NCBI GenBank assembly: GCA_017541145.1
Contig: JAFXZT010000062.1
Coordinates: forward strand, 1 to 44,804
DNA: 44,804 bases
Origin: Bacteroidales bacterium
GTDB taxonomy: Bacteria > Bacteroidota > Bacteroidia > Bacteroidales > UBA3824
Reading direction: 5' to 3'
Part shown: piece after piece, positions 6,687 to 23,371 of the stretch
Layout: the number at the start of each line of letters is the position of its first letter
Numbering within the stretch: the first letter of the stretch is position 1
The notes under the pieces: generated by a model
What the model saw: the letters and a program-made list of their open reading frames with translations, nothing else
What the model was told of the DNA's origin: nothing
Database searches by the model: none
Translations under genes and position numbers: made by a program

Positions 6687-7781
6687 TCAAGTTAAAAAAT
6701 AATCATAAAATTTAAGTTCGGAAACAAAAGGAAAATCGCAAAACAATTTTTCTATTTGACTGAAATTTTGACAATTAATTTCATGTAACTTCTTGTCTTT
6801 TACATAAATAAACCTTTCGTTACGTTTTACAGTATCGAGATGAGTAAGAAAAATTGTAAACTTAGTTTCATGATAATTACCAAGTTTATGACGTTGAAAT
6901 GCCTCGTTTAACAAATCAAAATCAAAAACACCAGTCTTGAAATTTCCTTGAAATCCATTGTAAACGTTACTTTCTGATTCATCGTTAAGATTATAGTTTT
7001 CAACTTGTTGCGGGGTGAAACCGTTGCCGTGCCGCGTTAAATATGTCCGCATAACAAGATAAACTTCCGCATTTTCTAATTCGTGGTCAGCAAAATATTG
7101 AAGTCCCGTATTTGTTGCCGTTACAAAAGGTTGAAAACCTAAATCCGCATCAAGTAAAAGCCCTTGTGTTCCTTCGTAAATTATTGTAGAATAATCGTTT
7201 ATGTTGATTTCTGACTGTAAGTTTTTAACTTTATAAAACGCAGTCAAAAACATCTCGTCAAATTCTTTGCAATGTGTTGTATTATAATACTTTACGGCTG
7301 ATGAAAGTATTTCTTCGGGGTTGTCGTCAAGAGAGAAACTTTTTCCAGAATCAGACCGTTTCAACGCCGCATAAACGCCTTTTCCGCACGTGCCGTCGCT
7401 TAAAGTTTTCTTGTCGTTGCGGCAAAATTCAACATCGTAAGGCGTTATGATTTTTGCATCGGAAACGTTAAATTTGGGAGTTATACCTTTGTTAATTAAC
7501 ACATTATACTCGTTAACAATACAAATCGGGTCGATAAGTGCGGTGTTTAAATAAAGTGTCGGCACGTTTAAAAGTGTTCCTGACCCAAACGACGAAAAAA
7601 TATGTCTTAATCCGTTGAAATCAACTGTATGCGCCGCCTGAGGACCTCCGCAAAATCTTACAACCAAAGGGTGTTTACCTTCGTCAAGAGCCTTTTTGCA
7701 AAGACTATGAACGCAAACGCCTTTCCCTTCGTCGCCGAATAACGCTCCGAGTACAATTTTTGTTTCTTTGTTAGTTTTCAT
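6687..7781 (-). CDS. Truncated, divergent adenylosuccinate synthetase-like ligase (PurA/PurZ superfamily)
   Basis: This protein has 364 residues when started at MKTNKETK (7781), the best start given the -7 box at 7809-7802; an upstream ATG at 7793 is also possible. Family members ligate aspartate to the 6-oxo group of a purine nucleotide. Seen: GDEGKG at 16-21 with catalytic Asp17, and GGPQAAHTV with His51 matching the GGxNAGHT loop. Also seen are EGTQGLLLDADLG, TATNTG and a THLD near 313-316. Odd points: THLD replaces the TKLD guanine-recognition motif, the Arg-rich RRRRTG aspartate loop reads QGNFKTG, and the protein stops about 50 residues early, before the STGPDR GTP motif. It is therefore unlikely to be the housekeeping PurA. 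Phage PurZ enzymes are similarly short, but those I recall have lost the catalytic Asp that is kept here. Substrate unknown. Confidence 0.8.
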   Translation of the reverse strand: MKTNKETKIVLGALFGDEGKGVCVHSLCKKALDEGKHPLVVRFCGGPQAAHTVDFNGLRHIFSSFGSGTLLNVPTLYLNTALIDPICIVNEYNVLINKGITPKFNVSDAKIITPYDVEFCRNDKKTLSDGTCGKGVYAALKRSDSGKSFSLDDNPEEILSSAVKYYNTTHCKEFDEMFLTAFYKVKNLQSEININDYSTIIYEGTQGLLLDADLGFQPFVTATNTGLQYFADHELENAEVYLVMRTYLTRHGNGFTPQQVENYNLNDESESNVYNGFQGNFKTGVFDFDLLNEAFQRHKLGNYHETKFTIFLTHLDTVKRNERFIYVKDKKLHEINCQNFSQIEKLFCDFPFVSELKFYDYFLT

Positions 7782-7801
7782 TAGTAGTGTCATTACCTCT
7801 G

Positions 7802-7809
7802 CAAATGTA
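7802..7809 (-). promoter_or_regulatory. -7 element of the PurA-like gene
   Basis: Minus-strand TACATTTG fits TAnnTTTG. The -33 position has only a T-rich stretch. Transcription starting near 7796 favours the ATG at 7781 over the longer forms. It overlaps back-to-back with the plus-strand promoter at 7818-7849. Confidence 0.5.
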
Positions 7810-7817
7810 ACAATTCT

Positions 7818-7849
7818 TTTGCAACGGAGAAAATATTTTTTTAAATTTG
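7818..7849 (+). promoter_or_regulatory. Promoter of the LRR/Sel1 gene
   Basis: TTTG (7818-7821), 20-base spacer, TAAATTTG (7842-7849): a perfect Bacteroidota promoter. It places the transcription start near 7856 and supports the ATG at 7874 rather than the TTG at 7847, which lies inside the -7 box. Confidence 0.7.
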
Positions 7850-7873
7850 CCATCAACCAAATTGTTTTTTACT

Positions 7874-10165
7874 ATGAAAACTCAAAAGCCTATTTCAGAT
7901 GGCAACATATTAGAAATCAAGCTTTCCCCGTCAAATCCGATAGAGGAATGTATTATTGACGCCAACACCAAGACGCTTGTCATATCGGGTGTTTGTGAGG
8001 GATGGTCGTTGACTTGTTTCTTTAACGAAAACGACAGTATTGCAAATGTAACAACATTAAATCTTAAAAATTGCAAGGTAACGGATTCCGAGTTTGGATT
8101 TGTAAGTTCCTTCAAAAAACTTAGGACAATCATTTTTCCCGAATTCCAAGAAAAAATTTCCACAATTTTTGTCAAAAAACTTAATATTGTCTATCCTGCG
8201 AATTTAGAGAAATTGAAATTGTATATTGAACCAAAATTCAGTGCGAAAGAATTAATTTTACCTCAATGTCTGAAAGAATTGTCGTTTAATATCTTTGATT
8301 ATAACAAAAAACTCAAAAAAATAAAGATAGGAAAAAATCTTTCCAAAATCCATTGTTTCGACATACCAAACAACCTTGAATCCGTTGAAATTGATCCCGA
8401 AAATCCATTTTTGACATTTTCTGATAATGCAATATATACAAAAGATTTAAAGACACTTATTGCATATATTCCCTTGGAAGAAAACGACGAGTATGTAGTC
8501 CGTGAAGGAACCGAAACCATACAAGAATATGCCTTTGCTGATAAGGAAATTAAGAAAATTATATTGCCAAACACCCTTAAAAACATAGAGGAATCGGCTT
8601 TTTACTATTCACGCAAACTTGAATATGTATCTATGGCGGATTCAGTTTTACAAGTCGGCGACTACGCTTTTAGCCATTGCAAAAACCTTAAATATCTGAA
8701 ACTTTCAAATTCTATCAGCAAATTGGGCGAGGGAATACTCGAAGAATGTTTAAATATAGAGGAGTTGTATTTGCCTGAAAATCTAAAAACTATCGACCCT
8801 AATTTTTTTGCATTTACCGATTGCGAAACAGAAGCGAAGATTTATTTGCCGACAACCAACACGAATTTTCAAATTGTTGACGGGATTATATATTCTAAAA
8901 ATTTTGACACGCTTATTGCCGCAATAGACAAAACGCGAAAAAGGTACAACATCGCAAAAAACGTCAAAATAATTGAACGATATGCATTTAGCGGTTGCCG
9001 TTATTTGGAGTTCGTCCACCTCCCCGAATCCGTAACCGAAATTAATAGTTTTGCATTTTCATATTGCTACAATCTTAAAAAAATAGTTATCGGCAAAAAC
9101 TTGAAGAAGTTTGCCAACGACGCTTTCTCTTGGTCTGAAAACCTTAAATACGTGGTTTTAAAAACTGAAAATCCTCCACAAATTGAGCATTCTGACGACG
9201 GATATTATTCTTTTGAAACCACTCAATTTGTGGTTCCATCAAAAAGCAAGGCGAAATACAAAAAAGCCGATTTTTGGAGCGGCGTAAAATATTACGACGA
9301 TTGCATTAAGCAATGTTGTTGTAATTGCAATGACACCAATTCATTTACCGACGAAGAAATCACAAAATACCGGAAAGAAGCCGAAGATGGCGACGAATAC
9401 AGTCAGTTGTCACTAAGTATTATTTACAAACATCAAAATGATACGGAAAAAAGTGTCTATTGGCTGAAAAAATCTGCCGAGCAAGGATATTCAGTGGCAA
9501 TGTACAATCTTTCGCATTATTATGATTCAAAAGGTCAATATGACGAAAAGGTCAAACTTCTTAAACAAATTCGCAGAATAAAAATTGACCCGAATGAGAC
9601 ATTTTGGCTTGACAAAGAGAATTATGAAACATATTACCGTGCGACAAACGACCTCGGAGTATGTTACTATTACGGCGAAGGGGTTCGCAAAAACTACAAA
9701 AAGGCTTTTCAATTGTATTGTAAAGCGGCAAAAGTAGGCGTTGCGGAAGCCATTTGCAATCGTGGTGTATGCTATGATTATGGTCGCGGCACAAAGAAAA
9801 ATCCAAGCAAGGCATTTTGTTGCTATCTTCACGCCGCTTTAAAAGGATACAGCGAGGCAATGAATAATGTAGCGTTATGTTATATTGAAGGAACAGCGGT
9901 CGACAAAAACAAAGACAAATTTATGTATTGGATTGGCAAAGCCCTCAAAAAGAACAGTTGCAATGCACAAAACAACATTGCATACGAGTATCTTACCGGC
10001 GAATTTCTTGAAAAGGATTTGAAAAAGGCAAAAAAATACTTTTTGCTTTCAATCAATAATCCCGACGGTGGCGACAAAAACCGACTCGACACCATAGAAT
10101 CCGCCCGAAACGGCAATAAGTTGGATATGGAAATGCTCAAACTCTGCGGCATAAAGTATATGTAA
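7874..10165 (+). CDS. Cytoplasmic BspA-type LRR_5 protein with C-terminal Sel1 repeats
   Basis: This protein has 763 residues from the ATG at 7874. The N-terminal two thirds carry LRR_5 (BspA-like) repeats with the pattern IxxxAFxxCxxLKxIxLPxxLxxI, for example IQEYAFADKEIKKIILPN and VGDYAFSHCKNLKYLKLS. From about residue 500 there are at least four Sel1-like repeats, such as LGVCYYYGEGVRKNYKKAF and RGVCYDYGRGTKKNPSKAF. There is no signal peptide, lipobox or membrane segment, so unlike most BspA proteins it should act inside the cell. Both repeat types are protein-binding scaffolds. It shares an overlapping divergent promoter region with the PurA-like ligase, so the two may be co-regulated or functionally linked; this is inference. 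The N-terminal 60 residues are not recognised. Confidence 0.8.
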   Translation: MKTQKPISDGNILEIKLSPSNPIEECIIDANTKTLVISGVCEGWSLTCFFNENDSIANVTTLNLKNCKVTDSEFGFVSSFKKLRTIIFPEFQEKISTIFVKKLNIVYPANLEKLKLYIEPKFSAKELILPQCLKELSFNIFDYNKKLKKIKIGKNLSKIHCFDIPNNLESVEIDPENPFLTFSDNAIYTKDLKTLIAYIPLEENDEYVVREGTETIQEYAFADKEIKKIILPNTLKNIEESAFYYSRKLEYVSMADSVLQVGDYAFSHCKNLKYLKLSNSISKLGEGILEECLNIEELYLPENLKTIDPNFFAFTDCETEAKIYLPTTNTNFQIVDGIIYSKNFDTLIAAIDKTRKRYNIAKNVKIIERYAFSGCRYLEFVHLPESVTEINSFAFSYCYNLKKIVIGKNLKKFANDAFSWSENLKYVVLKTENPPQIEHSDDGYYSFETTQFVVPSKSKAKYKKADFWSGVKYYDDCIKQCCCNCNDTNSFTDEEITKYRKEAEDGDEYSQLSLSIIYKHQNDTEKSVYWLKKSAEQGYSVAMYNLSHYYDSKGQYDEKVKLLKQIRRIKIDPNETFWLDKENYETYYRATNDLGVCYYYGEGVRKNYKKAFQLYCKAAKVGVAEAICNRGVCYDYGRGTKKNPSKAFCCYLHAALKGYSEAMNNVALCYIEGTAVDKNKDKFMYWIGKALKKNSCNAQNNIAYEYLTGEFLEKDLKKAKKYFLLSINNPDGGDKNRLDTIESARNGNKLDMEMLKLCGIKYM

Positions 10166-10300: not shown

Positions 10301-11722
10301 ATGAACGAAAACACAAATCTCATAGGACGTGACAGGGAGAAGAAACTTCTGACAAAGATTTTTAACTCACAAAAGTCAGAATTTACAGCGGTTTACGGAC
10401 GCAGACGTGTCGGCAAAACTTTTTTGGTGAGAGAGTTTTTCAACGAGAAAATCGTTTTTCAAGCCGCCGGACTTTCCAACTCCACAACTAAGGAGCAATT
10501 GAAAAACTTTTATCTGTCGTTGCAGCGTTACGACTGTGGCATTAACCAAACCCCTGACGATTGGTTGGAGGCTTTTAATTTGTTAGCCAATTACTTAGGC
10601 AAATTGAAAGTGGAACGTAAAGTTGTTTTTCTTGACGAATTACCGTGGATGGACACTCCTAATTCGGGATTCATATCGGCATTGGAACATTTTTGGAACG
10701 GCTGGGCTTCGGCACGTAAAGATATTGTGCTGATTGTCAGCGGTTCGGCAACGTCTTGGATGATGAACAACCTGATTCTCAATTACGGCGGACTTTATGG
10801 CAGGCTCACACAAAAAATATTCCTCGAACCGTTTGACCTAAACGAAACCGACGTGTTTTTGAAGTCCAAAGGAATCTACCTGTCTAAATACGAACTTGTT
10901 GAATGTTATATGATTATGGGCGGTATTCCATATTATTTGGAATTTATGGACAGGTCGCTTAGTCTTGCACAAAACATCAACAGAATGATTTTTAACCCTA
11001 ACGGCGACCTTTACCGAGAGTTTGAAACAGTGTATTCGTCGCTGTTTAAAAATAAGGAACTCTATGTAAAAACCGTTGAAATTCTCAGTCGCAAAGCCAA
11101 AGGTTTAACACGCAACGAAATAATTGAAGCCTCCGGCATAAAGTCGGGGAATGCGTTGACAACAGTTTTGAGTGACTTGGAATATTGCGGATTTATAAAA
11201 AAATATAACATTCTGAAATCGCAAAAAAACGCCATCTATCAACTGACAGATTTTTTCACGATTTTTCATTTTCGTTTTATTGAGAAAAGTTCGTTCTACA
11301 ATCTTCAATATTGGACTGACATTCAACGCAGTAGCGAATTTTATGTTTGGGCAGGCTGTACGTTTGAGATGTTGGTGATGAAAAACATCGACAAAATTAA
11401 GCGTAAACTTGGCATTTCGGGTGTTAAAACCGAAGTGTATTCGTGGCGCAGCAAAATATCCGATCCGGGCGCACAAATCGACCTTGTTATTGACCGCAAC
11501 GACAACACCGTAAATCTCTGTGAGATAAAGTTTTCAGAATCGGAATTTTTGATTTCAAAACAATACGACAAAAATCTCCGCAACAAGATTTCGGCGTTCA
11601 TTTCCGAAACCAAGACCAAGAAATCAGTACAACTCACATTCATAACCACTTACGGCCTCAAACGTAACGAATATTCGTCCGTCGCACAAAATGAAGTGGT
11701 AATGGATGATTTGTTTGGATAA
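10301..11722 (+). CDS. Archaeal-type AAA ATPase with C-terminal DUF234 nuclease-like domain
   Basis: This protein of 473 residues has a Walker A motif GRRRVGKT at 33-40 and a Walker B motif VVFLDELPW near 108-116, the ATPase_2 family layout. A winged-helix region follows (about 255-320, LTRNEIIEASGI). The C-terminal DUF234 domain carries a PD-(D/E)XK-like core, IDLVID...LCEIKF. The family is abundant, often in several copies, in Bacteroidota and archaea. Its cellular role is not established; roles in mobile elements or toxin-like systems have been suggested. The gene stands alone between the LRR/Sel1 gene and a convergent regulator, with its own promoter and palindromic operator-like repeats. 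No sign of truncation. Confidence 0.85.
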   Translation: MNENTNLIGRDREKKLLTKIFNSQKSEFTAVYGRRRVGKTFLVREFFNEKIVFQAAGLSNSTTKEQLKNFYLSLQRYDCGINQTPDDWLEAFNLLANYLGKLKVERKVVFLDELPWMDTPNSGFISALEHFWNGWASARKDIVLIVSGSATSWMMNNLILNYGGLYGRLTQKIFLEPFDLNETDVFLKSKGIYLSKYELVECYMIMGGIPYYLEFMDRSLSLAQNINRMIFNPNGDLYREFETVYSSLFKNKELYVKTVEILSRKAKGLTRNEIIEASGIKSGNALTTVLSDLEYCGFIKKYNILKSQKNAIYQLTDFFTIFHFRFIEKSSFYNLQYWTDIQRSSEFYVWAGCTFEMLVMKNIDKIKRKLGISGVKTEVYSWRSKISDPGAQIDLVIDRNDNTVNLCEIKFSESEFLISKQYDKNLRNKISAFISETKTKKSVQLTFITTYGLKRNEYSSVAQNEVVMDDLFG

Positions 11723-11776: not shown

Positions 11777-13105
11777 TTACGCTCCATTCTTCCAATTGTT
11801 AAGTGTTTTTTCGCTAACAGACAACTTTTTTGCCGCCTTCTTGCGCGAGCCGAACTTTTGTAACGCCCATTTGTTGAGTTCTTGACGAAAAGTTTTTTCA
11901 ATAGAACCGGCGTCAACAATTCCATCCGAAATCTTGACCTCAATTTTATCAGATACCACGGGATTTGAATGATATAGTTCGTAGCATTTTTTTGCATAAT
12001 CTAACGGCGAAACGGGAATTTTCATTTCGCTGCAAATCTCTCGGCGGATGGACTCATTGAAGTCAAGAAAAATCTTGTAATCTTTGGCGATGTTTTCCAA
12101 ATCGCGGAAATTGCCCTCCAACGGCAATGTTTTCAGCCATTGAAATAGTTCTCTGTCAATAGGAGCTTCGACATTGTTCTCTGGGTAAAGCCTTTTAAAA
12201 ATGCTTTTCCAATCGTTTTCCAAATCTTCCAACGTATCTCTAACTGGTGGAATTTCAACAACATACTGTACTACACGGTCGTAAAAATCGGGTAACAGGA
12301 TTTCGTGCAATTCTTCAATTGTGCGGTTGGTGGCAAAAACTAATTTAACATTCTTCACCTCGATTTCCTCATTGTCACCAACACGCCTTATTTTAAAGTT
12401 GTTATGTTTGTCTGTTTGGAACGCTTTCATCAACTTTGCCTGCACAGACTTATCCAAATGATGAATTTCGTCCATAAACAATACTCCTTGTTCGGCATCC
12501 TTTATAAGTCCCGTCTTGTTAATATTTGCACCCGTAAACGCGCCTTTTTTGTAGCCAAATAATTCTGATTCAGCGATTTGACTATCGGTAAATGACGCGC
12601 AATTTGCCTCAACAAGTCGTCCTGACACAGAAATCTTTTTTTCGTCAATCAAACCTCTTATTATCGACGACTTGCCAGTTCCTCTTTCTCCTAAAAGCAA
12701 CACAGAAAAACCTGATTCAAGGAATTTTTCGATTTTTTTGTTGACTAATTTGCGTTTTTGGGATTTTGTGTTGGGATAAAATTTTAATTGCGAACTAATG
12801 TCGGCGATGAGTTTTGTGCTTACCGTTTTGATTGTAAACGACTTAAAATGTTTGGTCGTTTCTTCTTTGTTGTCGTATGTTTTTATAAACTGCGTGTTTT
12901 TGGGCAGCAAATCGTTGGCAGCCAAAATATGCCATACCGATTGCAATTCGGGGCCACCAAGAGATATGTTGATCACGCAGTGGTCGTCCGAGGAGATTTT
13001 TTTAAAGGAAAAAAAATTCCTAATATTGTCCGCAATATTTTTCTCATTGCGCGAATCTGTCACGTCAAGTTCTACTACTTCAAATTTTATTTTCGTCATA
13101 AACAT
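11777..13105 (-). CDS. CARF-type sigma-54 activator, RtcR-like (AAA+ and Fis-type HTH; possible 3' part of a split gene)
   Basis: This protein of 442 residues combines three parts. Residues 1-80 look like the second half of a CARF (Rossmann) ligand-binding domain: the strand FEVVELDVTD, then INISLGGPELQSVW and a LAANDLLP helix, matching the region of RtcR that reads IHITTGT and LAEARYLP. Residues 118-360 are a sigma-54 AAA+ domain with Walker A GERGTGKS (139-146), the sigma-54 contact loop GAFTGA (188-193) and Walker B VLFMDEIHH (208-216). Residues about 405-441 form a Fis-type HTH (RKKAAKKLSVSEKTLNNW). The first half of the CARF fold is absent here but is present in the overlapping upstream frame. 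Removing one T from the T7 run (13107-13113 on the plus strand) would join them. It lies divergent from the glycosyltransferase-radical SAM operon, its likely target by the usual RtcR arrangement. No rtcA/rtcB is in the window. Confidence 0.8.
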   Translation of the reverse strand: MFMTKIKFEVVELDVTDSRNEKNIADNIRNFFSFKKISSDDHCVINISLGGPELQSVWHILAANDLLPKNTQFIKTYDNKEETTKHFKSFTIKTVSTKLIADISSQLKFYPNTKSQKRKLVNKKIEKFLESGFSVLLLGERGTGKSSIIRGLIDEKKISVSGRLVEANCASFTDSQIAESELFGYKKGAFTGANINKTGLIKDAEQGVLFMDEIHHLDKSVQAKLMKAFQTDKHNNFKIRRVGDNEEIEVKNVKLVFATNRTIEELHEILLPDFYDRVVQYVVEIPPVRDTLEDLENDWKSIFKRLYPENNVEAPIDRELFQWLKTLPLEGNFRDLENIAKDYKIFLDFNESIRREICSEMKIPVSPLDYAKKCYELYHSNPVVSDKIEVKISDGIVDAGSIEKTFRQELNKWALQKFGSRKKAAKKLSVSEKTLNNWKNGA

Positions 13106-13586
13106 TAAAAAAATTTGTTTTTTCTTTGAGCCATTTTACTTGTTCTTTTATTTCATAATGTTGAATATCACGCCACATATATTGTTCAAAATCAGCGTAT
13201 TTGTCGCTGTATTTTTCTTTTACATACTGCAATTCCTTGTCAACGTCGTAACCAAACGATGTATTGGTCCTCAAATCGTCATATACCTCGACTAACCCTT
13301 TTGCTTGAAGCACTTCGTCGTTTTCAAAAGACATATTATGATAATGTAATCTTGACGAAACTTTGTTGACAACTTCTTGTCTTGTAGTGAGATAATAAAC
13401 CTTATCGAACAGTTTATTACCCGTATTATTGTCGAAAATAGAGTTACAGTAATCCTGTTCGTATTTCTGTTTGCCCAAAACACTTGCATCTGTTGTGTTT
13501 TTTTCATAAAAACAACTCAAAATATGCTTCATATAAGCAATTCCGTGTGTCGTATAATGCCAAGTTATGTAAATATCTCGTGCCAT
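13080..13586 (-). CDS. N-terminal CARF half of the split RtcR-like regulator, or a separate small protein
   Basis: This frame encodes 168 residues from the ATG at 13586, placed just after a promoter. It starts with a strand, DIYITWHYTTHGIAY, and has a second one, KVYYLTTRQEVV, about 60 residues on. These correspond to the first two strands of the CARF fold in RtcR, where the DRLELLHDARS segment follows the first strand. A charged helical insert of about 90 residues follows. The frame ends in KTNFFNVYDENKI, overlapping the start of the regulator gene by 26 bases. Alone it would be half a Rossmann domain, so I infer that it belongs to one protein of about 600 residues interrupted at the T7 run. 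Two separately made, coupled subunits remain possible. Confidence 0.6.
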   Translation of the reverse strand: MARDIYITWHYTTHGIAYMKHILSCFYEKNTTDASVLGKQKYEQDYCNSIFDNNTGNKLFDKVYYLTTRQEVVNKVSSRLHYHNMSFENDEVLQAKGLVEVYDDLRTNTSFGYDVDKELQYVKEKYSDKYADFEQYMWRDIQHYEIKEQVKWLKEKTNFFNVYDENKI

Positions 13587-13606
13587 ATTCCTGTGATTTA
13601 TTACAA

Positions 13607-13636
13607 CAAAGGTAAATAAATTCCTACAAAGACAAA
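13607..13636 (-). promoter_or_regulatory. Promoter of the CARF/sigma-54 regulator
   Basis: Minus-strand TTTG (13636-13633), 18-base spacer, TACCTTTG (13614-13607). The spacer is one base shorter than usual. The leader to the ATG at 13586 is about 14 bases. Confidence 0.55.
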
Positions 13637-13696
13637 TATTTCCTAAATTAATTTTACATATAGTTTCCAAATATCTGACTGTCAAATATATAAAAA

Positions 13697-13713
13697 TTGG
13701 CATATTATTTTCA
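13697..13713 (+). promoter_or_regulatory. Possible sigma-54-type promoter of the glycosyltransferase-radical SAM operon
   Basis: TTGGCATATTATTTTCA has the -24 element TTGGCA and a -12 element TTTTCA, where the consensus is TTGCA, so the -12 G is missing. The GG-to-C spacing is that of sigma-54 promoters. No TAnnTTTG box is seen between 13587 and 13751 on this strand, and the adjacent divergent gene is a sigma-54 activator. Three CAAATAT copies (13633, 13671, 13683) lie just upstream and could be activator sites. The match is imperfect. Confidence 0.35.
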
Positions 13714-13751
13714 TTGTAATTTAACAGTAAATAAAATAATATGAACAGAAT

Positions 13752-15959
13752 ATGCGAATCCTAATAATCATACACGGCTATCCGCCGTATTATATGGCGG
13801 GAAGCGAAGTTTACACCTACAACCTTGCGCGGGAGTTGGCAAAAAGCAACGACGTGTTTGTCTTTCACAGAATTGAAGACAAAACGCGACCGCTGTATCA
13901 GATTACCGATACGGTGAACGAGGGTGTAAATGTCAGGTATATAAATAATTACGAACCCTCAAACGCCGTGTTTTACGACAAGTATCTCAATCCGAGAATC
14001 GACGACGAATTTCGCAATTATGTTAAAATTGTGAATCCCGATGTGGTGCACATCGGACATCTCTCGCACCTTTCCACGCAGATTCCAATTATCGCCAAAC
14101 GGGAGTTTGGTCTGCCGGTGCTTTTCACAATCCACGATTTTTGGATGTTTTGCCATCGTGGACAATTGATCAATCCCGAAGATTGGCAGATTTGCCCGCT
14201 GCCAAACGCTGAACAATGCACCCACTGCGCCGCATTCCATTACAGAAAGCCTGATTTTGACGCACGGCAGATTGAGGAGCGCGACAGCCACATCAAAATC
14301 GTAAACGACTGTATTGATGTGTTTTTTGCACCGTCGCACACGCTCGAAAAATTTTATGTGGATATGGGCGTTGACCCGAAAAAAGTGTTTTATTCAAAAT
14401 ATGGCTTCAACGTTTCAAAAATCCACAAGCACAAAAAAACGCCGCACACAACTACAACGTTTGGTTTTACGGGCAGGATAATCCATAACAAAGGAGTACA
14501 TATTTTGTGCGAGGCGTTCAGCAAGGTGAAGGGCGACGCACGCCTTGTGATTTGGGGCGATGCCGACAGCGAATACGGCAACAATCTGAAAAAAAAATAT
14601 TCGAGCAAAAATATCGAGTTCAAAGGCCGTTACCACAACGACGATTTGCAGCAAGTGCTTGATTCATTTGATGTTTTGGTGTGTCCGTCGATATGGCTCG
14701 AAAATGCGCCGCTTGTGATTCAGGAGGCTCAGGCGGCACAACTCCCGGTACTTGTGAGCGACCGTGGCGGAATGGCGGAACTTGTCCACGACGGCATTGA
14801 CGGCTTTACGTTCCGACTTGGAGACGCGGACGACCTGCGTCTTAAAATGCAAAGAATTATTGACAATCCTGAAATGCTTTCCGCATTGGAACCGTCCATC
14901 GAAAAAGTACGTACGATACAAGATGATGCTGAGTTTTGTGTGCAGAAATACAGGGAGTTGACGAAAACATCGCCAATCTATCCGCACCGTCCGTCGCCGT
15001 GGAGAATCACTTTTATTACCAATCCTGACAAATGCAACTTGCATTGCAAGATGTGCGACACTTTTTCTGCCGACAACAGACATAGACTCAGAGAGTTGCA
15101 TCGAGAGGAAATGAATTTTTCTGTGGTGGAAAAGACCGTTGAGCAACTTGCGAATCACGGATTGAAGGAAATCATTCCCTCAACAATGGGTGAACCCCTG
15201 TTGTACTCTCATTTTGAGCAACTTGTGGATTTATGCAAAAAATTCAACGTCAAGATGAACCTCACCACAAACGGCACTTTTCCAAAAGGCGTTGAATTTT
15301 GGGCTGAAAAACTTTTGGACGTGATTTCAGACGTCAAATTCAGCATCAACGGCATCAATCCCGAAATCAACGAATCCATAATGTGCGGAGTCAACACCCG
15401 CAAGCAACTCGACAACATCGAGTATTACCTGAACATCCGCAAAAAAAACGGCGGAAACAGCACAGTGACGCTTCAATGCACGTTTATGAAATCGAATCTT
15501 TACGAACTCGAAAACATAATCCGCTGGGCAATCGAACACGGTGTTGACCGCGTGAAAGGCCATCATCTGTGGAAGACTTCGGAATCGCTCGATTGCGAAA
15601 TGCTCCGCACCGGCGACAATGCTCCGCTTTGGAACGAAGTCTGCGCCAAGTGCCACAAAATAGCCGACGGAAAAATCCGCTTGGAGAATTTTGTGCCGGT
15701 GGATTTGAACGCGCCTGCAATAGACGACAACGACACATTCTGTCAATTTCTCGGCAAAGAATTATGGGTGGAATATGACGGCTCGTACCAAGTATGTTGC
15801 TGTCCGTCGGAGGTTCGCAAAGAATTTGGCGACTTCGGCAATGTAAAAGACGTCTCGCCTCTGGAAATGTGGAACTCGCAGGCTTACTGCAATTTCATCA
15901 AGGATTGGGGCGACAGCGAAAACTGCAAAAAATGTAATATGAGGAGGAAAAGAATATGA
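13752..15959 (+). CDS. Glycosyltransferase family 4 - radical SAM/SPASM fusion protein
   Basis: This protein has 735 residues. Residues 1-400 form a GT-B glycosyltransferase of the GT4 type: IHGYPPYYMAGSEVY at the donor/acceptor cleft, FTGRIIHNKGVHIL starting the second Rossmann domain, and PSIWLENAPLVIQEAQA with GGMAELV, the E-x7-E region binding the nucleotide sugar. Residues about 415-640 are a radical SAM domain with C428/C432/C435 (CNLHCKMC). The end is SPASM-like, with C-rich VCCCPSE near 682 and CKKCNMRRKRI. Radical SAM/SPASM enzymes often modify peptides or carbohydrates by C-H chemistry; one chain with a sugar transferase is unusual. First gene of an operon overlapping the next by 4 bases. 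Cytoplasmic. Substrate unknown. Confidence 0.85.
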   Translation: MRILIIIHGYPPYYMAGSEVYTYNLARELAKSNDVFVFHRIEDKTRPLYQITDTVNEGVNVRYINNYEPSNAVFYDKYLNPRIDDEFRNYVKIVNPDVVHIGHLSHLSTQIPIIAKREFGLPVLFTIHDFWMFCHRGQLINPEDWQICPLPNAEQCTHCAAFHYRKPDFDARQIEERDSHIKIVNDCIDVFFAPSHTLEKFYVDMGVDPKKVFYSKYGFNVSKIHKHKKTPHTTTTFGFTGRIIHNKGVHILCEAFSKVKGDARLVIWGDADSEYGNNLKKKYSSKNIEFKGRYHNDDLQQVLDSFDVLVCPSIWLENAPLVIQEAQAAQLPVLVSDRGGMAELVHDGIDGFTFRLGDADDLRLKMQRIIDNPEMLSALEPSIEKVRTIQDDAEFCVQKYRELTKTSPIYPHRPSPWRITFITNPDKCNLHCKMCDTFSADNRHRLRELHREEMNFSVVEKTVEQLANHGLKEIIPSTMGEPLLYSHFEQLVDLCKKFNVKMNLTTNGTFPKGVEFWAEKLLDVISDVKFSINGINPEINESIMCGVNTRKQLDNIEYYLNIRKKNGGNSTVTLQCTFMKSNLYELENIIRWAIEHGVDRVKGHHLWKTSESLDCEMLRTGDNAPLWNEVCAKCHKIADGKIRLENFVPVDLNAPAIDDNDTFCQFLGKELWVEYDGSYQVCCCPSEVRKEFGDFGNVKDVSPLEMWNSQAYCNFIKDWGDSENCKKCNMRRKRI

Positions 15960-16531
15960 AAACCGCATTTGTAATCAGACATTCCGACCGTGATTCTGTG
16001 AAAAATCCCTTGAACCACGCTGTGGTGCTTTTGAACGCCGAAGGTGAAAAACGCGCCCGCGAATTTGGCAAAAAATTGTCGCAAGAATTTGCAAAAATCA
16101 GGATTTTTTCAAGTCCGATAGAGCGTTGCATCCAAACGGGAAAATGCATTCAGGAGGCGTTTGACGATGATTCAGAAGTGCAATTAAGCACAGTGCTTGG
16201 CGAGCCGGGACCATACGTTTTTGGAGACACCGCCGACCTTTTTGTAACACTTGGCACCGTCGGTGTTGTCGAAGGAATAGAAAAAGGCACGCCGCCGCCT
16301 TTAAACCGCAAAGAGGAAGAGGGCGCAAAAATTCTGTTGGATTACTTACGTGCCGAAACCGACAAATCTGACGAACAAACCGCCAATGTCTTCATCACTC
16401 ACGATGCCTGCATTGCGCCTGTAATTCATTGTTTTACAGGTGAATATTTCAATAAAAAACATTGGGTTGATTTTCTCGGCGGCTTGAAAATTCAGTTTGG
16501 CGAAGGTTTGTTAAACATCAAAAGAATTTAA
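15956..16531 (+). CDS. Histidine phosphatase superfamily protein
   Basis: This protein of 191 residues belongs to the phosphoglycerate mutase-like histidine phosphatases. The phosphate-accepting His9 lies in VIRHSDRD, where the usual RHG reads RHS. SSPIERCIQTGK carries the conserved phosphate-binding Arg, and the second catalytic His is in FITHDACIAP near residue 149. The enzyme would remove phosphate from a small metabolite such as a sugar phosphate. It overlaps the glycosyltransferase-radical SAM gene by ATGA and lies 2 bases before the carbamoyltransferase gene, so the three are translationally coupled and probably share one pathway. Which phosphorylated intermediate it acts on cannot be read from the sequence. 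Confidence 0.85.
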   Translation: MKTAFVIRHSDRDSVKNPLNHAVVLLNAEGEKRAREFGKKLSQEFAKIRIFSSPIERCIQTGKCIQEAFDDDSEVQLSTVLGEPGPYVFGDTADLFVTLGTVGVVEGIEKGTPPPLNRKEEEGAKILLDYLRAETDKSDEQTANVFITHDACIAPVIHCFTGEYFNKKHWVDFLGGLKIQFGEGLLNIKRI

Positions 16532-16533
16532 TT

Positions 16534-18210
16534 ATGTCAAAACCTACAATTGCAATCTACGGCATCAAAGACCGTAACACCTTTGAATATCCGGCATACG
16601 TACACGATCACAACATTTGCGTGATGACTGACGGAAAAATCGTTCAGTATCTGCAACTTGAACGTTATTCGCGCCGCAAATACGACAACCGTCTGGATGT
16701 GTACATTGAAAAATTGATCGACAAAAAAATCATTGACTGCCCTGAGGATTTTGACTTGGTATGCGTCAATGATTTCGTCGGGAATGCTTTTGTTTCCCAA
16801 AACGGACGACTGCGGTTTGAGTGCGACAAACAAAATAAACTGTCGTTTGAACTCCATAACGGGGACGCTTATTTTCAATACGACGGCTGGAACGGCAAAC
16901 CGATAAACGCTTATTTGTGTCAGCACGAGATTGCGCATATTTGTTCGACACTGCCGTTTTATGGTGATTTCAAGGACAATTCGTTGCTGTTTTCGCTTGA
17001 CGGAGGTTCAAGTCTCGGCAATTATTCAACATTTCTTTTCCACGACGGCAAAATTTCGCTCATCGAAAACAACTGGACTGATTTGGGTTACGCGTCAAAA
17101 TTTTTCAACGACAACTCATTTACATTCAGAATGTTGGGAGCAAAGCCGGGCGAGCATTGCTCCGTTCCTGGCAAACTGATGGGGTTTGCAAGTTGGGGCA
17201 GTTACGATTCCGAAATTGAAAAATGGCTCGTTGAAAACAATTATTTCAAGGAGTATTGGCACAAGGAAAACGAAATCTTGCAATCCATCAAAAAACGCTT
17301 CGGCGTGGACGCTACATTTGATACGCACGACTCTTTTATGCAGAATGTTGCCGCTACGTTTCAACGGATTTTTGAAAATGCCGTGCTCAAAAAACTTGAA
17401 ATCTTGCAGCAAAAATATCATACCGACTATTTGTATTATGGCGGAGGCTGTGCGTTGAATATTGTCACCAATACAAAAATCGTTGAAAGCGGGTTGTTCA
17501 AAGACGTTTTTATTGCGCCGTGCTGCAACGACAGCGGACTGAGCATCGGTGCGGCGGCATTGCTCGAACGTCAAAAAGGCAACCGAATCAAAATACATTC
17601 GCCGTATCTCAACAATGTTGGAATTGGCAACGAGCAATTGACTGTTGACGACGCAACAATCAAACAGACAGCCAATTTGTTGTTACAAAACAAAATAGTC
17701 GGCATCTGCAACGGCGCGGCAGAAACAGGACCTCGCGCACTCGGCAACCGCAGCCTGATTGCTCTTGCCAACAGCAAAGAGTTGGCGCAAAAAATGAGTA
17801 TGGATGTAAAAAAACGCGAATGGTATCGTCCTGTTGCACCAATTATGCTCAAAGAAAACGCAAAAAAGGTTATAAATCAAACGATTACACACCTTGCAAA
17901 ATTTATGCTGACCGACTTTACGATAAAACCAGAATACAGGTGGACTCTCGAAGGCGTTGTTCACGCCAACAATACGGCGAGGATTCAGATTTTGGAAACA
18001 TACAACGACAATCCGTTTATGTACCGGTTGTTAAAATATCTCTCTGACAATCACAGAGTTTTGGCATTGATTAACACCTCGTTCAATGCGCAAGGCGAAC
18101 CGATTGTCCACACCGAAAATGACGCCATCCAAAGCGCAAAACGGATGAATTTGGATGCTGTCGTGATTAATGGACAATTGTCAATTACTTCCGCCGAATG
18201 GCAATTATGA
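16534..18210 (+). CDS. NodU/CmcH-family carbamoyltransferase
   Basis: This protein of 558 residues transfers a carbamoyl group from carbamoyl phosphate, with ATP, to a hydroxyl group. The family includes NodU (Nod factors), CmcH (cephamycin) and TobZ. Seen: an ASKHA-type phosphate loop FSLDGGSSLGNYST, the metal-binding HEIAH about residue 131, and a second ATP-site region GGGCALNIVTNTKI. The C-terminal domain contains ETGPRALGNRSL, REWYRPVAPI and TSFNAQGEPIV, all typical of that domain. The N-terminal WNGKP and DHNIC segments are family-like. Length is normal for the family. Its position between a phosphatase and a WG-repeat gene suggests carbamoylation of a sugar made or attached by the fused glycosyltransferase. 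Confidence 0.9.
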   Translation: MSKPTIAIYGIKDRNTFEYPAYVHDHNICVMTDGKIVQYLQLERYSRRKYDNRLDVYIEKLIDKKIIDCPEDFDLVCVNDFVGNAFVSQNGRLRFECDKQNKLSFELHNGDAYFQYDGWNGKPINAYLCQHEIAHICSTLPFYGDFKDNSLLFSLDGGSSLGNYSTFLFHDGKISLIENNWTDLGYASKFFNDNSFTFRMLGAKPGEHCSVPGKLMGFASWGSYDSEIEKWLVENNYFKEYWHKENEILQSIKKRFGVDATFDTHDSFMQNVAATFQRIFENAVLKKLEILQQKYHTDYLYYGGGCALNIVTNTKIVESGLFKDVFIAPCCNDSGLSIGAAALLERQKGNRIKIHSPYLNNVGIGNEQLTVDDATIKQTANLLLQNKIVGICNGAAETGPRALGNRSLIALANSKELAQKMSMDVKKREWYRPVAPIMLKENAKKVINQTITHLAKFMLTDFTIKPEYRWTLEGVVHANNTARIQILETYNDNPFMYRLLKYLSDNHRVLALINTSFNAQGEPIVHTENDAIQSAKRMNLDAVVINGQLSITSAEWQL

Positions 18211-18233
18211 ATTATGCATTATGAATTGAAAAA

Positions 18234-18869
18234 ATGAAAGTATTTAAAAACAGACTCAAATTTCACGCTCCGGGAATTGCTCCCGTTGAAGACGAAACAG
18301 GTTGGTATCACATCGATACTCAGGAAAATCCGATTTACAACGAGCGTTACGCCCGCACATTCGGTTATTACTGCGGATTGGCGGCTGTAACTGATTGTAA
18401 CGGCAATTGCTTCCACATCGACACCTCCGGCAGGCGAGTTTACAGCCAAAACTACGCTTTTTGCGGCAATTATCAGGAAGACAAATGCGTTGTGAGGGAT
18501 CATTCCGGCAAGTATTTCCATATTGATAAAGATGGAAATCGTTTGTATTCAAAAAGTTACCGATATGTTGGAGATTTCAAGGACGGATACGCATCAGTCA
18601 GGCTCGACGACGGTTTGTTTATGCACATCGATGGCAACGGCAAACCGCTCAACGGTAAAAAATTTCAAGACCTTGGCGTTTTTCACAAGAATTTTGCCAC
18701 CGCCAAAGACGAAGACGGATGGTTTCACATTGACTTAAATGGAAACGCCTTGTATTCAGAACGTTATCTTATAGCAGAGCCGTTTTACAATGGATTTGCA
18801 TTGATGACGGACGTCTCAGGCAACAAATTGATTATCAACGAACAAGGAGAAAGGATACTATGTGTCTAA
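18234..18869 (+). CDS. WG-repeat protein
   Basis: This protein of 211 residues consists almost wholly of about six WG-like repeats of roughly 34 residues. The pattern is FHID-x2-G-x3-YS-x3-Y-x3-G-x-F-x2-G-x-A-x-V, for example FHIDKDGNRLYSKSY and MHIDGNGKPLNGKKF. Such repeats form beta structures used for binding; no enzyme motif is seen. There is no signal peptide. It sits within the operon: 23 bases after the carbamoyltransferase, across an AT-rich linker with repeated ATTATGAATT, and overlapping the epimerase start by 10 bases. It might act as a scaffold or target of the modification enzymes around it; this is speculation. Confident as to repeat type, not function. Confidence 0.75.
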   Translation: MKVFKNRLKFHAPGIAPVEDETGWYHIDTQENPIYNERYARTFGYYCGLAAVTDCNGNCFHIDTSGRRVYSQNYAFCGNYQEDKCVVRDHSGKYFHIDKDGNRLYSKSYRYVGDFKDGYASVRLDDGLFMHIDGNGKPLNGKKFQDLGVFHKNFATAKDEDGWFHIDLNGNALYSERYLIAEPFYNGFALMTDVSGNKLIINEQGERILCV

Positions 18870-19795
18870 AAAACAAAAAAATATTGATAACCGGCGGGCT
18901 TGGATTCATATGACGCACACTTTTGGAAACTTTGATTGACAGCCATTGCGGAGCGCAATTGTTTGCAATCGACGTCAAAGACTTTCCGAAAGACGCAACG
19001 GTATTGCGGCAAAATGTTGAATTTCAAAACATTGACATCCGCGACGAAAACGCCGTAAAATCATACGTCCGCGCACATAAATTTGACGGGATAGTGCATC
19101 TTGCCGCCGTGAGCCGTGTGGTTGCCGCAGAAAACGACAAGAAAAATTGTATCGAAACCAATTTTCAAGGCACAAAATATCTTGCCGAAGCCGCCGCCGA
19201 AAATCCCGATTGCTGGATAATTTTTGGAAGTAGCCGCGAAGTTTATGGCGAACAAAGCGTCTTCCCCGTCAAAGAAAATGCAGAACTTTTGCCGCTCAAT
19301 GTCTATGGATTTTACAAACTTGAAGGCGAGCGTATTGTGCGGTCATTAGTCAGAAAGAATTGTGTATTAAGGTTTTCCAATATCTATGGCAACCTTTACG
19401 ACATTCACGGACGTGTGATACCGACGTTTGTAAGCACAGCCATAAAAGGCGGCGAAATCAGGCTTGAAAGCGGCGAACAGATTATTGACTTCACCTATAT
19501 CGACGATACTGTCGCCTCAATTATCCAATGTATGAAAATGTTGCAGTCGGGAGACATCGATGCTGAAACCGTACACATCTCTCCCGGAGTTGCCAACAAG
19601 ATAACGGATATAATTGACATTCTGCGAGATATGGGATTTAAATTCGCTGTCCGTAAAAATCCGCCACGCAGTTATGACGTGCAGCGTTTTGTGGGCGATA
19701 CCGTGCACAGACAACAAATCTTCGGGGACAGGAGTTTTATCGGACTTCGCGAAGGGATAGGAAAATTGATAAAATTAGTTCGGCAAAAATCATAA
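18860..19795 (+). pseudogene. NAD-dependent epimerase/dehydratase interrupted by in-frame TGA
   Basis: The natural start is ATG 18860, giving MCLKNKKILITGGLGFI and then TGA at 18911-18913, followed in the same frame by RTLLETLIDSH and a full extended-SDR protein of about 290 more residues. The stop falls exactly where the conserved third Gly of GxxGxxG belongs (GGA to TGA is one base). Downstream motifs are intact: the VHLAAVS region, YGFYKLEGERI with the catalytic Tyr-x3-Lys, and RFSNIYG. The family makes nucleotide sugars by epimerising or dehydrating them. TGA is a normal stop elsewhere here, for example at 15957-15959, so recoding is unlikely. A restart at ATG 18923 would lack the NAD-binding loop. 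It is a recent nonsense mutation or a base error. Confidence 0.8.
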
Positions 19796-21019: not shown

Positions 21020-22585
21020 ATGCGCAGATTCAACATAACAGGAACGTGCATTCCCAACAAGCACTATATGGTGGACATCACCGACCGACTTGACGAAATT
21101 GAAAAACAAGTGTCTATGGGAGAATACCTCACCATCAACCGTGGCAGACAATTCGGCAAGACTACCACGCTTTTCCATTTGGCGAAACGGCTGAGCGAGA
21201 AGTATGTAGTGTTTTCGATTAGTTTTGAGGCATTTAGCAGCAATCATTTTCGCACCAACGACACCCTCGCATACTCTTTTGTGGAGGCGTTATGGACAAA
21301 AATAGAACGCAACTTAACACGCAATGCCGACGACTGTGTAAAAAAATCGCTGTCTGACATTCTTAAAGCCAATGCGAAGAAAAAGGAAATATCCCAAAAC
21401 GATTTCTCCAAACTGATATTCGACATCTGCTCCCAATCGTCAAAACCAATTGTTGTGTTTATCGACGAGGTGGACAACGCGAGCAACTACGATTCGTTCA
21501 TAAATTTGTTGAGAGTTCTGCGTGACAAGTATTTAAACGCAGAAAACGACCCGACATTCCAATCCGTAATTCTTGCTGGCGTTTACGACATCAAAAACCT
21601 CAAACTCAAAGTGCGTCCCGACAGCGACCACCAATACAATAGTCCGTGGAACATTGCGGTGGCTTTCAAGGAGAGAATGTCTTTTTCCAAGGAACAGATT
21701 GCCCAAATGCTCGGCGACTACGAAAACGACCATCATACGGGTATGGACCTCAATGGAATTGCCTCGTTGATAGAGGATTATACATCGGGATACCCGTTTT
21801 TGGTATCAAAAATATGCCTTACCATCGACGAAGAAAAACTCGGTTGGACTACCGAAGGCGTCATCGAGGCTGTGAAAATCCTGCTCGTTGAAAAAAACAC
21901 CTTCTTCGACGACCTCAACAAGAAGTTAGATAACTTTCCTGAATTGGAATCGCTCTTGAAAGACATCCTATATTACGGCAAACCCTGCCCATTCAACTTG
22001 GACATCAAGATAATTGACATCGCGCAGATGTTCAATTACATAGCCAACAACAAGGGTTATGTGAAAATCTCAAACCGCATAATAGAAACCCGTCTTTACA
22101 ACAAGTTTATGGCGGTGGATGTGCGTGGCAAAATGTTTGACGCGGGCGAGATAGAAAAGTCGCAATTCATAGAAAACGGCTCTCTCAAAATGGATTTGAT
22201 TTTGGAACGTTTTGCCTTCCACTTCAACCAAATCTACGGCAAACAGACCAAGGAGTTCAAGGAGGAGGAAGCACGCCGTTATTTTATGCTCTACGTCCGC
22301 CCAATCATCAACGGCACAGGTAATTACTACATCGAGGCACAGACCCGCGACCGCTCCCGCACCGATATGGTCATCGACTATTTGGGCAAGCAATACGTCA
22401 TCGAAATGAAGATTTGGCGCGGCAACTCTTACAACGAGCGCGGCGAACAGCAACTCGCCGAATACCTCGACTTCTACAACATCACCAAGGGCTACCTGCT
22501 CAGTTTCTGTTTCAACAAAAAGAAAATCCCCGCCGCCAAGACCATAAAGATTGGCGACCGCGAGATTGTGGAAGTTGTAGTATAA
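21020..22585 (+). CDS. AAA-like ATPase with C-terminal PD-(D/E)XK nuclease domain
   Basis: This protein has 521 residues. The N-terminal motif FNITGTCIPNKHYMVDI precedes Walker A GRQFGKTT (42-49), and Walker B VVFIDEVDN lies near 147-155, the pattern of the AAA-like ATPases common in Bacteroidota. The last quarter has a nuclease-like core, RSRTDMVIDYLGKQYVIEMKIW, with the D and ExK residues of the PD-(D/E)XK fold; QQLAEYLDFYNI follows as in PDDEXK_9 domains. Such proteins occur in many copies per genome and their role is unknown, possibly in mobile-element or defence biology. It has its own promoter and is convergent with the chitosanase gene, with 4 bases between stops. Confidence 0.8.
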   Translation: MRRFNITGTCIPNKHYMVDITDRLDEIEKQVSMGEYLTINRGRQFGKTTTLFHLAKRLSEKYVVFSISFEAFSSNHFRTNDTLAYSFVEALWTKIERNLTRNADDCVKKSLSDILKANAKKKEISQNDFSKLIFDICSQSSKPIVVFIDEVDNASNYDSFINLLRVLRDKYLNAENDPTFQSVILAGVYDIKNLKLKVRPDSDHQYNSPWNIAVAFKERMSFSKEQIAQMLGDYENDHHTGMDLNGIASLIEDYTSGYPFLVSKICLTIDEEKLGWTTEGVIEAVKILLVEKNTFFDDLNKKLDNFPELESLLKDILYYGKPCPFNLDIKIIDIAQMFNYIANNKGYVKISNRIIETRLYNKFMAVDVRGKMFDAGEIEKSQFIENGSLKMDLILERFAFHFNQIYGKQTKEFKEEEARRYFMLYVRPIINGTGNYYIEAQTRDRSRTDMVIDYLGKQYVIEMKIWRGNSYNERGEQQLAEYLDFYNITKGYLLSFCFNKKKIPAAKTIKIGDREIVEVVV

Positions 22586-22589
22586 ACGC

Positions 22590-23371
22590 TTACTCCATCT
22601 TCCGTAATTCAAACTTGTCCCCGTACATCGTCCAACTTAGCGGCAAAGTCATCCCAAAATTCTTTTCGGAGAGAAATTTTTGTTGGGCGATGATGCGCGA
22701 GAGGTCTTCGTGGGCGGCTTCTTTTTTCATAATTATAGTCCGCGCTGACAAAAATGCCGAAAGCCATTCTGTTTCGTCGCCACCGAGCGATGGCGGACGA
22801 TGCGAAGAAAGCGCGGCTTGACGGATTCCGCCAAAACTGTCCTCGTCGTCGCCGGGGCCGTGCACCACAAGAGCGTCGTAATAAACAAATGTTCCAAGTG
22901 TGCTAATACCGTCTTTTTCAGCATAATAAAGCGCAGTATTGTAATACATCGCGTCCAAAACAGAATCCTGTGCCATTAACATCTCGTTATCCTTGGCGGC
23001 AAGTTTCCAAGCCCTGACAAACTTTTTGCCGAGACCTATGTGCGAGGGCGTGCCGTTAACTTTTTCGAGGGCGGGAAGATATTTTTGAAGCGGATTGTTG
23101 ACGGGTTTTAATGCAACGTAACGCTTTACGACCTCCAACATATCGCCCGTACCCGACGTAAAACCAATGACTCCTGCCGTGTATCCGCGTCCATCGTCGA
23201 TGTCCTTTATAAAAGCGTATTGCGCCTTGAAATCGAGCGACGAATTTTCCGCCGACGACACAATGCAAAAAATATCGTCCTCATATCCTGAGCCACTTCG
23301 CGAGAGAAAACTTGAGCGGCACAAAATATTGGTGTTAACAGCAATAATATGATTATCAGTGATTTACGCAT
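22590..23371 (-). pseudogene. GH46 chitosanase, signal peptide and catalytic domain in different frames
   Basis: The ATG at 23371 opens a signal peptide, MRKSLIIILLLLTPIFCAAQ. The catalytic domain then continues in another frame: SSAENSS holds the likely catalytic Glu, followed by DIDDGRGYTAGVIGF and TSGTGDMLEVV, all typical of GH46 endo-chitosanases, which cut chitosan outside the cytoplasm. A -1 shift at the T6 run (plus strand A6, 23267-23272), or one extra T there, joins the frames as TIFFCIVSSAENSS and gives one secreted protein of about 260 residues. The internal ATG at 23324 would give a form without a signal. It may be a mutation, phase variation or sequencing error. No chitosan-uptake genes are adjacent. 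Confidence 0.75.

Follow-up and report, generated by a model that had tools for sequence, protein, structure and literature searches.

CARF sensors are known as switches of nucleases and, in RtcR, of RNA repair. What, then, would such a sensor control when it stands back to back with genes for a glycosyltransferase, a radical SAM enzyme and a carbamoyltransferase? The question is raised by a 44,804-nucleotide stretch of Bacteroidales DNA (contig JAFXZT010000062.1 of assembly GCA_017541145.1, 4.6 Mb and 97% complete), hereafter the window, in which a gene for a putative CARF-AAA+-helix-turn-helix (HTH) sigma-54 activator on the minus strand is divergent from a five-gene operon on the plus strand (13752-19795). 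A first-pass annotation, made from the sequence alone, had described an activator back to back with an operon of GT4-radical SAM, phosphatase, NodU-type, WG-repeat and epimerase genes; coordinates and family scans bore this description out, every gene that it named lying where it had been placed. The operon starts about 165 bases from the start of the N-terminal open reading frame (ORF) of the regulator, and its genes follow one another with gaps of -4, 2, 23 and -10 bases, the last one assuming that the epimerase gene starts at 18860; the G+C content is 44% for the operon, 37% for the regulator and 39% for the window. The reading that we favour, with a probability of roughly 0.57, is that of a CARF-switched operon, responsive to infection or RNA damage, that would make a small molecule or glycan, capped and glycosylated, whose role may be anti-phage. 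What speaks for it, by comparison of sequences, is the gene content of the module, its conserved pairing with the regulator, a -24 box that is likewise conserved, a difference between promoters that appears to track the regulator, and recurrent neighbourhoods of defence or phage genes.

One scan of GTDB genomes with the CARF part of the regulator yielded 15 loci, which together with the window gave 16 regulators; the WG protein was taken as the marker gene of the module. In ten of the 16 (the window, L068, L070, L071, L074, L075, L076, L078, L079 and L080), the regulator is directly divergent from an operon containing the GT4 gene, so that the neighbourhood, on whose conservation in relatives the first-pass annotation had made its proposal depend, is indeed conserved. 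The glycosyltransferase (GT) gene is incomplete in two of these loci, being cut by the contig end in L068 and reduced to its first 66 residues in L079, and it is preceded by other genes of the operon in L075, L078, L079 and L080. The regulator is near the operon but not directly divergent from it in two of the 16, with three genes between them in L067 and with a convergent orientation on the same contig in L069. For L066, L072, L073 and L077, the WG gene was found on another contig of the same genome; genomes with the module on a contig other than that of the regulator are G144, G548, G549 and G545. The genomes behind L068, L075, L079 and L080 yielded no WG gene; their operons are short or run into the end of the contig. 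The closest counterpart of the window is L078, from an uncultured Bacteroidia metagenome-assembled genome (MAG), which has the gene order of the window with one small extra gene and all genes intact, its GT-radical SAM protein being 77.6% and its activator 69% identical to those of the window. The divergent pairing occurs in Bacteroidota, in a Lachnospiraceae MAG (L075) and in a Thiomargarita MAG (L070), mis-binning of the MAGs being possible; L073 (G053, Draconibacterium orientale) and L072 (G093, Bacteroidales bacterium) come from relatives of the same order.

The regulator and the module also tend to occur together. Among 147 relatives, the WG protein (at least 325 bits) was found in nine, the CARF activator in six and both in five, which means that WG was present in five of the six genomes with the CARF activator but in four of the 141 without it (P 1.4e-6). 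Both are rare and patchy in the phylum: in a sample of 395 genomes, WG was found in two and the CARF activator in one, the window's own genome being counted in both. The CARF activator was absent from all 17 same-genus genomes searched.

Next to the pairing, the intergenic region itself may point to sigma-54. As the first-pass annotation had said, the operon lacks a TAnnTTTG promoter: none faces it in the divergent region of the window. A box of this kind, TACCTTTG (13607-13614, minus strand), faces the regulator, and we take it to be a -7 box of the Bacteroidota type (consensus TAnnTTTG). The same octamer begins 34 bases (L078) and 21 bases (L080) before the regulator, and TAnnTTTG faces the regulator at most 35 bases from its start in six of the ten divergent regions (the window, L068, L076, L078, L079 and L080), both being raw observations made without a shuffle comparison. 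In the direction of the operon, the sigma-54-like promoter TGGCATATTATTTTCA (13698-13713, plus strand) combines a good -24 box with a degenerate -12 element; it scored 17.7 of 20.2 in a weighted scan, a value matched by one of 300 shuffles of its own 164-base region. The partial sigma-54 site announced beforehand thus holds up within its own region, and not as an excess over the whole window, where the sigma-54 consensus gave 18 sites with at most two mismatches against 21.5 expected. The weighted scan, which was fixed before the relatives were examined, gave a shuffle fraction below 0.1 in five of the ten divergent regions (the window, L071, L074, L078 and L080), the best site of L074 differing from its TGGCAY site.

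The TGGCAY pattern of the -24 box was picked after the sites of the weighted scan had been seen, and the window is counted among the ten regions in which it faces the operon in eight (1.23 in shuffles, the observed count being reached in 0 of 1000). On the other strand, it was found in none of the ten. Combined with TT at the -12 distance, it was present in seven of the ten divergent regions versus 0.23 in shuffles, and in only one of the six regions without an adjacent operon. The distance from TGGCAY to the first gene is 49-54 bases in the window, L078 and L080, and 112-193 bases in L074, L076 and L079. An unsupervised search by Gibbs sampling recovered the same -24 box. A conserved palindromic operator was rejected as a candidate, as this sampling recovered only the TACCTTTG box and the -24 box and no shared enhancer.

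A natural contrast is provided by loci in which the module adjoins a different AAA+ protein, of about 300-330 residues and without a GAFTGA loop (G012, G017, G097 and provirus L102). Three of the 147 genomes encode this protein, and all three have the module but no CARF activator; the query also matched proteins of G053 and G144, which are CARF activators. TGGCAY was found in none of the four loci with the GAFTGA-less protein, and three of the four carry TAnnTTTG at a distance of 36-49 bases upstream of the operon; the promoter type thus seems to follow the regulator type, if in small numbers. Saprospira (L074) carries both regulators.

The regulator of the window is itself interrupted. Its C-terminal piece (11777-13105, minus strand) holds the rest of the CARF domain, an AAA+ domain with a GAFTGA loop (KKGAFTGAN) and an HTH (Pfam PF00158, 1.5e-36; PADLOC RtcR_PspF1 CARF_AAA_HTH, 293 bits, profile positions 62-465). 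As the PADLOC match of this 442-residue ORF starts only at profile position 62, the first part of the CARF domain is absent from it; that part lies in a 168-residue piece in another frame (13080-13586, minus strand), which overlaps the first by 26 bases. The CARF profile A2 matches the window's regulator in two pieces, at 2-167 and 164-283. In L003, L004, L005 and L007, both parts form one open frame of 603-637 codons, and it is because relatives hold the two pieces in a single frame that we regard the gene as interrupted in the window. The RtcR-like activator of the first-pass annotation is thus right as to its CARF, GAFTGA-bearing AAA+ and HTH parts, but it is split between two frames here. 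The N-terminal domain is predicted to be a CARF domain: the model of the L078 homologue, built with 14 sequences, has a mean predicted local distance difference test score (pLDDT) of 87.7 and a predicted template modelling score (pTM) of 0.83, and the best 30 Foldseek rows against the PDB are all, going by their titles, proteins of the CARF type (Csm6, Can2, Card1, Cad1-CARF, a ring nuclease). RtcR proteins mostly have no positive residue after strand 4, according to Makarova et al. (PMC4012209). The corresponding stretch of the regulator consensus reads LGSNETQ, as would suit a ligand that is not cyclic oligoadenylate. Type III CRISPR was rejected as a general source of the signal: Cas10 was found in five of 18 genomes with the regulator or the module, and not in the window's own.

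The first gene of the operon (13752-15959) encodes a fusion of a GT4 glycosyltransferase and a radical SAM/SPASM enzyme of 735 residues, with the cluster motif CNLHCKMC at residue 428; its relatives are 76-85% identical, the 85% one being a piece of 114 residues only. A gene for a relative of this protein, in G007 (L056, 2486-2884), stops after about 112 matching residues. The second gene (15956-16531) encodes a protein of the histidine phosphatase superfamily (191 residues), which matches Pfam PF00300 weakly (3.7e-7, 30 bits) and has a counterpart in L064 at 87%. The third (16534-18210) encodes an O-carbamoyltransferase of the NodU/TobZ type with 558 residues, in which both domains exceed the Pfam cut-offs (PF16861, 3.5e-50 and 170.3 bits; PF02543, 1.5e-28 and 100.7 bits), and which matches PDB entries, TobZ and GdmN among them, at 1e-39 to 1e-32. 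The fourth (18234-18869) encodes a WG-repeat protein of 211 residues (Pfam, 1.6e-6), a predicted beta-propeller. Its sequence gave no match in the PDB; the model of its L078 homologue is a high-confidence predicted beta-propeller (pLDDT 94.9), whose best Foldseek matches (1.6e-9 at best, template modelling (TM) score about 0.5) are designed propellers and BamB. As to the epimerase, its family, NAD-dependent epimerase/dehydratase, was confirmed, but the gene (18860-19795) starts at 18860 and holds an in-frame stop before 18923, in the Rossmann stretch near the gene start, which leaves the ORF 18923-19795 as its tail; an intact relative is found in L064 (3028-3969, 68%). Mutation and assembly error could alike account for the split regulator and the stopped epimerase.

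The composition of the module varies by locus. The phosphatase is of the histidine or the tyrosine type, the cap enzyme is a methyltransferase, as in many relatives, or of the NodU type, and the GT4 and radical SAM parts are fused or separate. WG is sometimes fused to a methyltransferase, as in the WG-O-methyltransferase proteins of L070 (4170-5855, the Thiomargarita MAG), L103 (13941-15635, phage WO) and L104 (10227-11936, an Arsenophonus plasmid). Extra genes were found for a cytidylate kinase and a B12-radical SAM protein in L065, an adenylate-kinase-like protein (by eye) and a PDC-M51A radical SAM protein in L079, a second radical SAM protein in L054, and a Pol-beta-tyrosine phosphatase protein in L057. 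An expanded module with added radical SAM and further enzyme-like genes lies in a Dysgonomonadaceae MAG (L123, 7351-15999), and short contigs of G017 (L053, L064 and L065) carry fragments of at least two copies of the module.

Some of these variants lie next to genes of defence. True prokaryotic viperin genes stand between the regulator and the GT gene in L075 (278.7 bits) and L080 (269.7 bits; cut-off 180), and a third (L113, 8655-9809, 384 residues) occurs at a site separate from the module in the genome that carries L078. Viperin exceeded the cut-off in three of 18 genomes with the regulator or the module, versus one of 395 in the phylum sample, to which L075 does not belong, being of another phylum (P 2.7e-4). 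HmaA and a cut HmaB adjoin L079, and type II restriction-modification genes adjoin L099, a locus that lacks the CARF activator. Three phage lineages, the Wolbachia phage WO among them, carry the module or its GT-radical SAM gene; in provirus L102, the module lies between endolysin and integrase genes, and in L119, a GT-radical SAM fusion has terminase, RusA and SSB genes for neighbours. Searches with the WG protein gave two phage records, the second being a Clostridioides phage at 26.5%, and 11 plasmid records, three of them from Arsenophonus at 43-45%; the other plasmid matches listed, at 23-29%, look like general WG proteins. For the regulator, the CARF part had no relative among 258 pattern matches in viral contigs, and the activator matched three plasmid records (E up to 1e-30), which cover at most query residues 177-579 (50-61%).

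We propose the following course of events. The regulator would be made from its own housekeeping-type promoter, and its CARF domain would keep the AAA+ domain off until a nucleotide-type signal binds. By analogy with RtcR, this signal would be RNA ends arising from damage or infection rather than the cyclic oligoadenylate of type III CRISPR. The released AAA+ domain would then remodel the sigma-54 polymerase at 13698-13713 and turn the five-gene operon on, which would make the operon sigma-54-dependent; RpoN is encoded in the window's genome. Of the products, GT4 would add a sugar, the radical SAM/SPASM part would perform a radical modification, the phosphatase would take off a phosphate, the carbamoyltransferase, or the methyltransferase in many relatives, would cap the product, and the WG propeller may serve in binding or as a scaffold. 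The capped, glycosylated small molecule or glycan so made would act against phage, a role for which the odds are about even and the evidence is of the neighbourhood type: viperin, carriage by phage, and defence-gene neighbours.

Several observations weigh against this reading. The -12 element of the window (TTTCA) is, as in all regions, poor. TGGCAY is absent from the divergent regions of L068 and L075 and far from the operon in L071 (467 bases) and L070 (775 bases), and for these reasons lies less than 200 bases from the operon in only six of the ten. It also faces away from the regulator in three of the six regions without an adjacent operon (L066, L067 and L072; 0.44 in shuffles, reached in 6 of 1000), L066 and L067 sharing one sequence. 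The weighted scan gave a shuffle fraction below 0.1 in four of seven other regions as well (L069, L072, L073 and L077), and since this compares with five of ten, the scan alone cannot separate divergent from other regions. TAnnTTTG faces the operon in three of the ten CARF loci, too (L070, L076 and L080). Regarding the regulator, the loop is strict GAFTGA or GSFTGA in nine of the 15 fetched activators and altered in six, and the Foldseek matches of the CARF model are weak (best E 7.6e-3, none below 0.001, TM about 0.3). Regarding its association with the module, neither regulator accompanies the module in G086, and G061 lacks WG but carries a close activator in truncated form. The correlation in a Mantel test (r 0.53, P 0.002, n 11) may reflect the kinship of species. 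Finally, the viperin excess is partly circular, because two of the three genes had been known before the comparison and the third belongs to a different locus, and among ten window proteins PADLOC gave strong matches only for a PDC-S27 candidate and the regulator. The claim of the first-pass annotation that an RtcR-type CARF activator controls a divergent operon other than RNA repair through sigma-54 thus gains from the pairing in ten of 16 loci and the -24 box in eight of ten regions, and loses by the degenerate -12 element and the presence of the box in three of six other regions. That the regulator and the operon are coupled in regulation nevertheless appears likely from the sequence comparison. 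A merely chance juxtaposition, with the regulator controlling something else, could draw on the four of 16 loci without adjacency and on the -24 boxes beside some regulators without an operon, but it is mostly excluded by the conserved pairing, aided by the strand-specific boxes and the co-occurrence, and is very improbable.

A different doubt concerns this copy. As the activator is frame-split and the epimerase stopped, both within 8 kb, the copy may be dead or mis-assembled, and the CARF activator is missing from the 17 same-genus genomes; that the organism has no working switch, the locus being an artefact of assembly or a remnant in decay, is a serious possibility, if one with the odds against it. 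The other four operon genes are open, with lengths about as in relatives, nothing disrupts the radical SAM motif, both genes are whole in L078, where the order is the same, and the overlapping regulator pieces might be co-translated. What the pathway makes can be read in other ways, too. GT4, epimerase, NodU and methyltransferase genes are common in surface-glycan loci, and their products may decorate a surface polysaccharide with a methyl or carbamoyl cap, altering phage adsorption or host interaction, with prophages carrying the genes as serotype-converting cargo. Carriage by phage would fit such conversion, and exopolysaccharide or lipopolysaccharide is among the roles suggested in passages on the Undecim Cluster of phage WO (PMC9203015). 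Nevertheless, we consider this tentative and somewhat unlikely: no flippase, polymerase or membrane GT was recognised among the module genes scanned, in which no systematic search for them was made, and the SPASM radical SAM part, plus the viperin and nucleotide kinases of the variants, fit less well. Stress-induced secondary metabolism, in which CARF would sense RNA damage by antibiotics or oxidation and the product would be a metabolite that is secreted or gives protection and has no bearing on phage, has in its favour that RtcR itself is described as answering RNA damage (PMC9650030), that the carbamoyltransferase is closest to the antibiotic-tailoring TobZ and GdmN types, that the Undecim Cluster is said to hold genes of antibiotic production and export (PMC9203015), and that exporter-like sets follow the regulator in L066 and L067. 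It sits badly with viperin in two operons and with the phage or defence-gene neighbourhoods, and we judge it unlikely. The exporter-like sets, recognised by eye, are of the TetR-TolC-ABC kind and lie downstream of the CARF activator at 6309-13181 in L066 and 11028-17953 in L067. A narrower version of an anti-phage pathway, which we hold to be improbable as well, would be a CARF-triggered chemical immunity yielding an intracellular modified nucleoside or nucleotide, with GT4, radical SAM, phosphatase and a methyl or carbamoyl cap as its core; viperin and a cytidylate or adenylate kinase would be optional, and the Undecim Cluster of phage WO would be the phage-borne version of the pathway, with aldolases added.

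If the favoured reading of a CARF-switched operon is true, CARF, whose target here appears to be a pathway to a small molecule or a glycan, with viperin in some loci, would have a chemical arm of its signalling. That distant bacteria share the pairing, in some cases with anti-phage genes close by, suggests a chemical response that is little known and may be triggered by infection, the Undecim Cluster would gain a testable home in cultured strains and complete genomes (Labilibacter marinus Y11 and Saprospira grandis), and the CARF activator and its GAFTGA-less relative make a natural pair for linking promoter type to regulator type.

Around the locus, the window encodes an ATPase_2-type protein adjoining the 3' end of the regulator (10301-11722), matched by the PADLOC candidate PDC-S27 (9.5e-195), which is a computational candidate only; an adenylosuccinate synthetase-like protein (6690-7856, 100.7 bits); a 772-residue protein with BspA-type leucine-rich repeats fused to Sel1 repeats (7847-10165); an AAA-ATPase whose C-terminus weakly matches PD-(D/E)XK (21020-22582); and a glycosyl hydrolase family 46 protein (22593-23324, 269.6 bits). 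A small protein at 20292-20618 matches the lambda Bor family below the cut-off, the only phage-type match among the 20 proteins scanned with Pfam (the window has 63 ORFs of at least 100 residues).

Of the known systems, prokaryotic viperin (pVip) is present as true genes in two of these operons, but the window's radical SAM part is not a viperin (NF038283, 37.8 bits versus a cut-off of 180). The carbamoyltransferase resembles NodU, TobZ and GdmN in having both Pfam domains over their cut-offs, and differs in falling below the NodU cut-off (141.5 bits versus 1000). RtcR, described as responding to RNA damage and driving rtcBA RNA repair (PMC9650030), is alike in the CARF-AAA+-HTH order and in the putative sigma-54 target; in contrast to it, the C-terminal piece of the window reaches 151.9 bits against the 650-bit cut-off of the NCBIfam equivalog NF038308, the CARF N-terminus is larger here, and there is no rtcBA in the divergent operon. 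CARF-AAA-HTH activators outside Rtc have already been described, in passages linking them to restriction-modification and CoCoNuT genes (PMC4012209, PMC11090510); these are CARF activators, too, and tied to defence genes, but most genes of the CoCoNuT loci are co-directional with the activator, whereas the target here would be a divergent enzyme operon. In open-access PMC literature, no paper was found joining WG repeat, glycosyltransferase and radical SAM, and the only one joining CARF, RtcR and glycosyltransferase (PMC7159879) does not, in the parts of it that bear on these terms, describe such a system.

The closest described relative found, by sequence, is the Undecim Cluster (WD0611-WD0621) of the Wolbachia phage WO, reached together with Arsenophonus plasmids by tblastn of the WG protein of L071. 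The Arsenophonus plasmids carry a related set, to which the plasmid adds genes annotated as phytanoyl-CoA dioxygenase and threonine aldolase; these may recall the nucleoside-antibiotic enzymes LipL and LipK. In the 28.7 kb of the cluster that were read, no match was found to the histidine phosphatase, the carbamoyltransferase or the activator. The first-pass statement that no system of this composition is described needs amending: the cluster is a described partial relative, and non-Rtc CARF-AAA-HTH activators are described as well. The cluster also differs from the window in that its WG is fused to a methyltransferase and that it adds L-allo-threonine aldolases; neither this fusion nor the cluster's additional genes of metabolism and export are among the five genes of the operon. 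Its functions are, according to passages of its description, predicted only, including antibiotic production and export, with exopolysaccharide or lipopolysaccharide among the roles proposed (PMC9203015). What it shares with the module is one run of an epimerase (34%), a GT4-radical SAM fusion (37.6% over 776 residues) and WG (53% over 198 residues), which correspond, by order and description, to UC2-UC4 of the Undecim Cluster.

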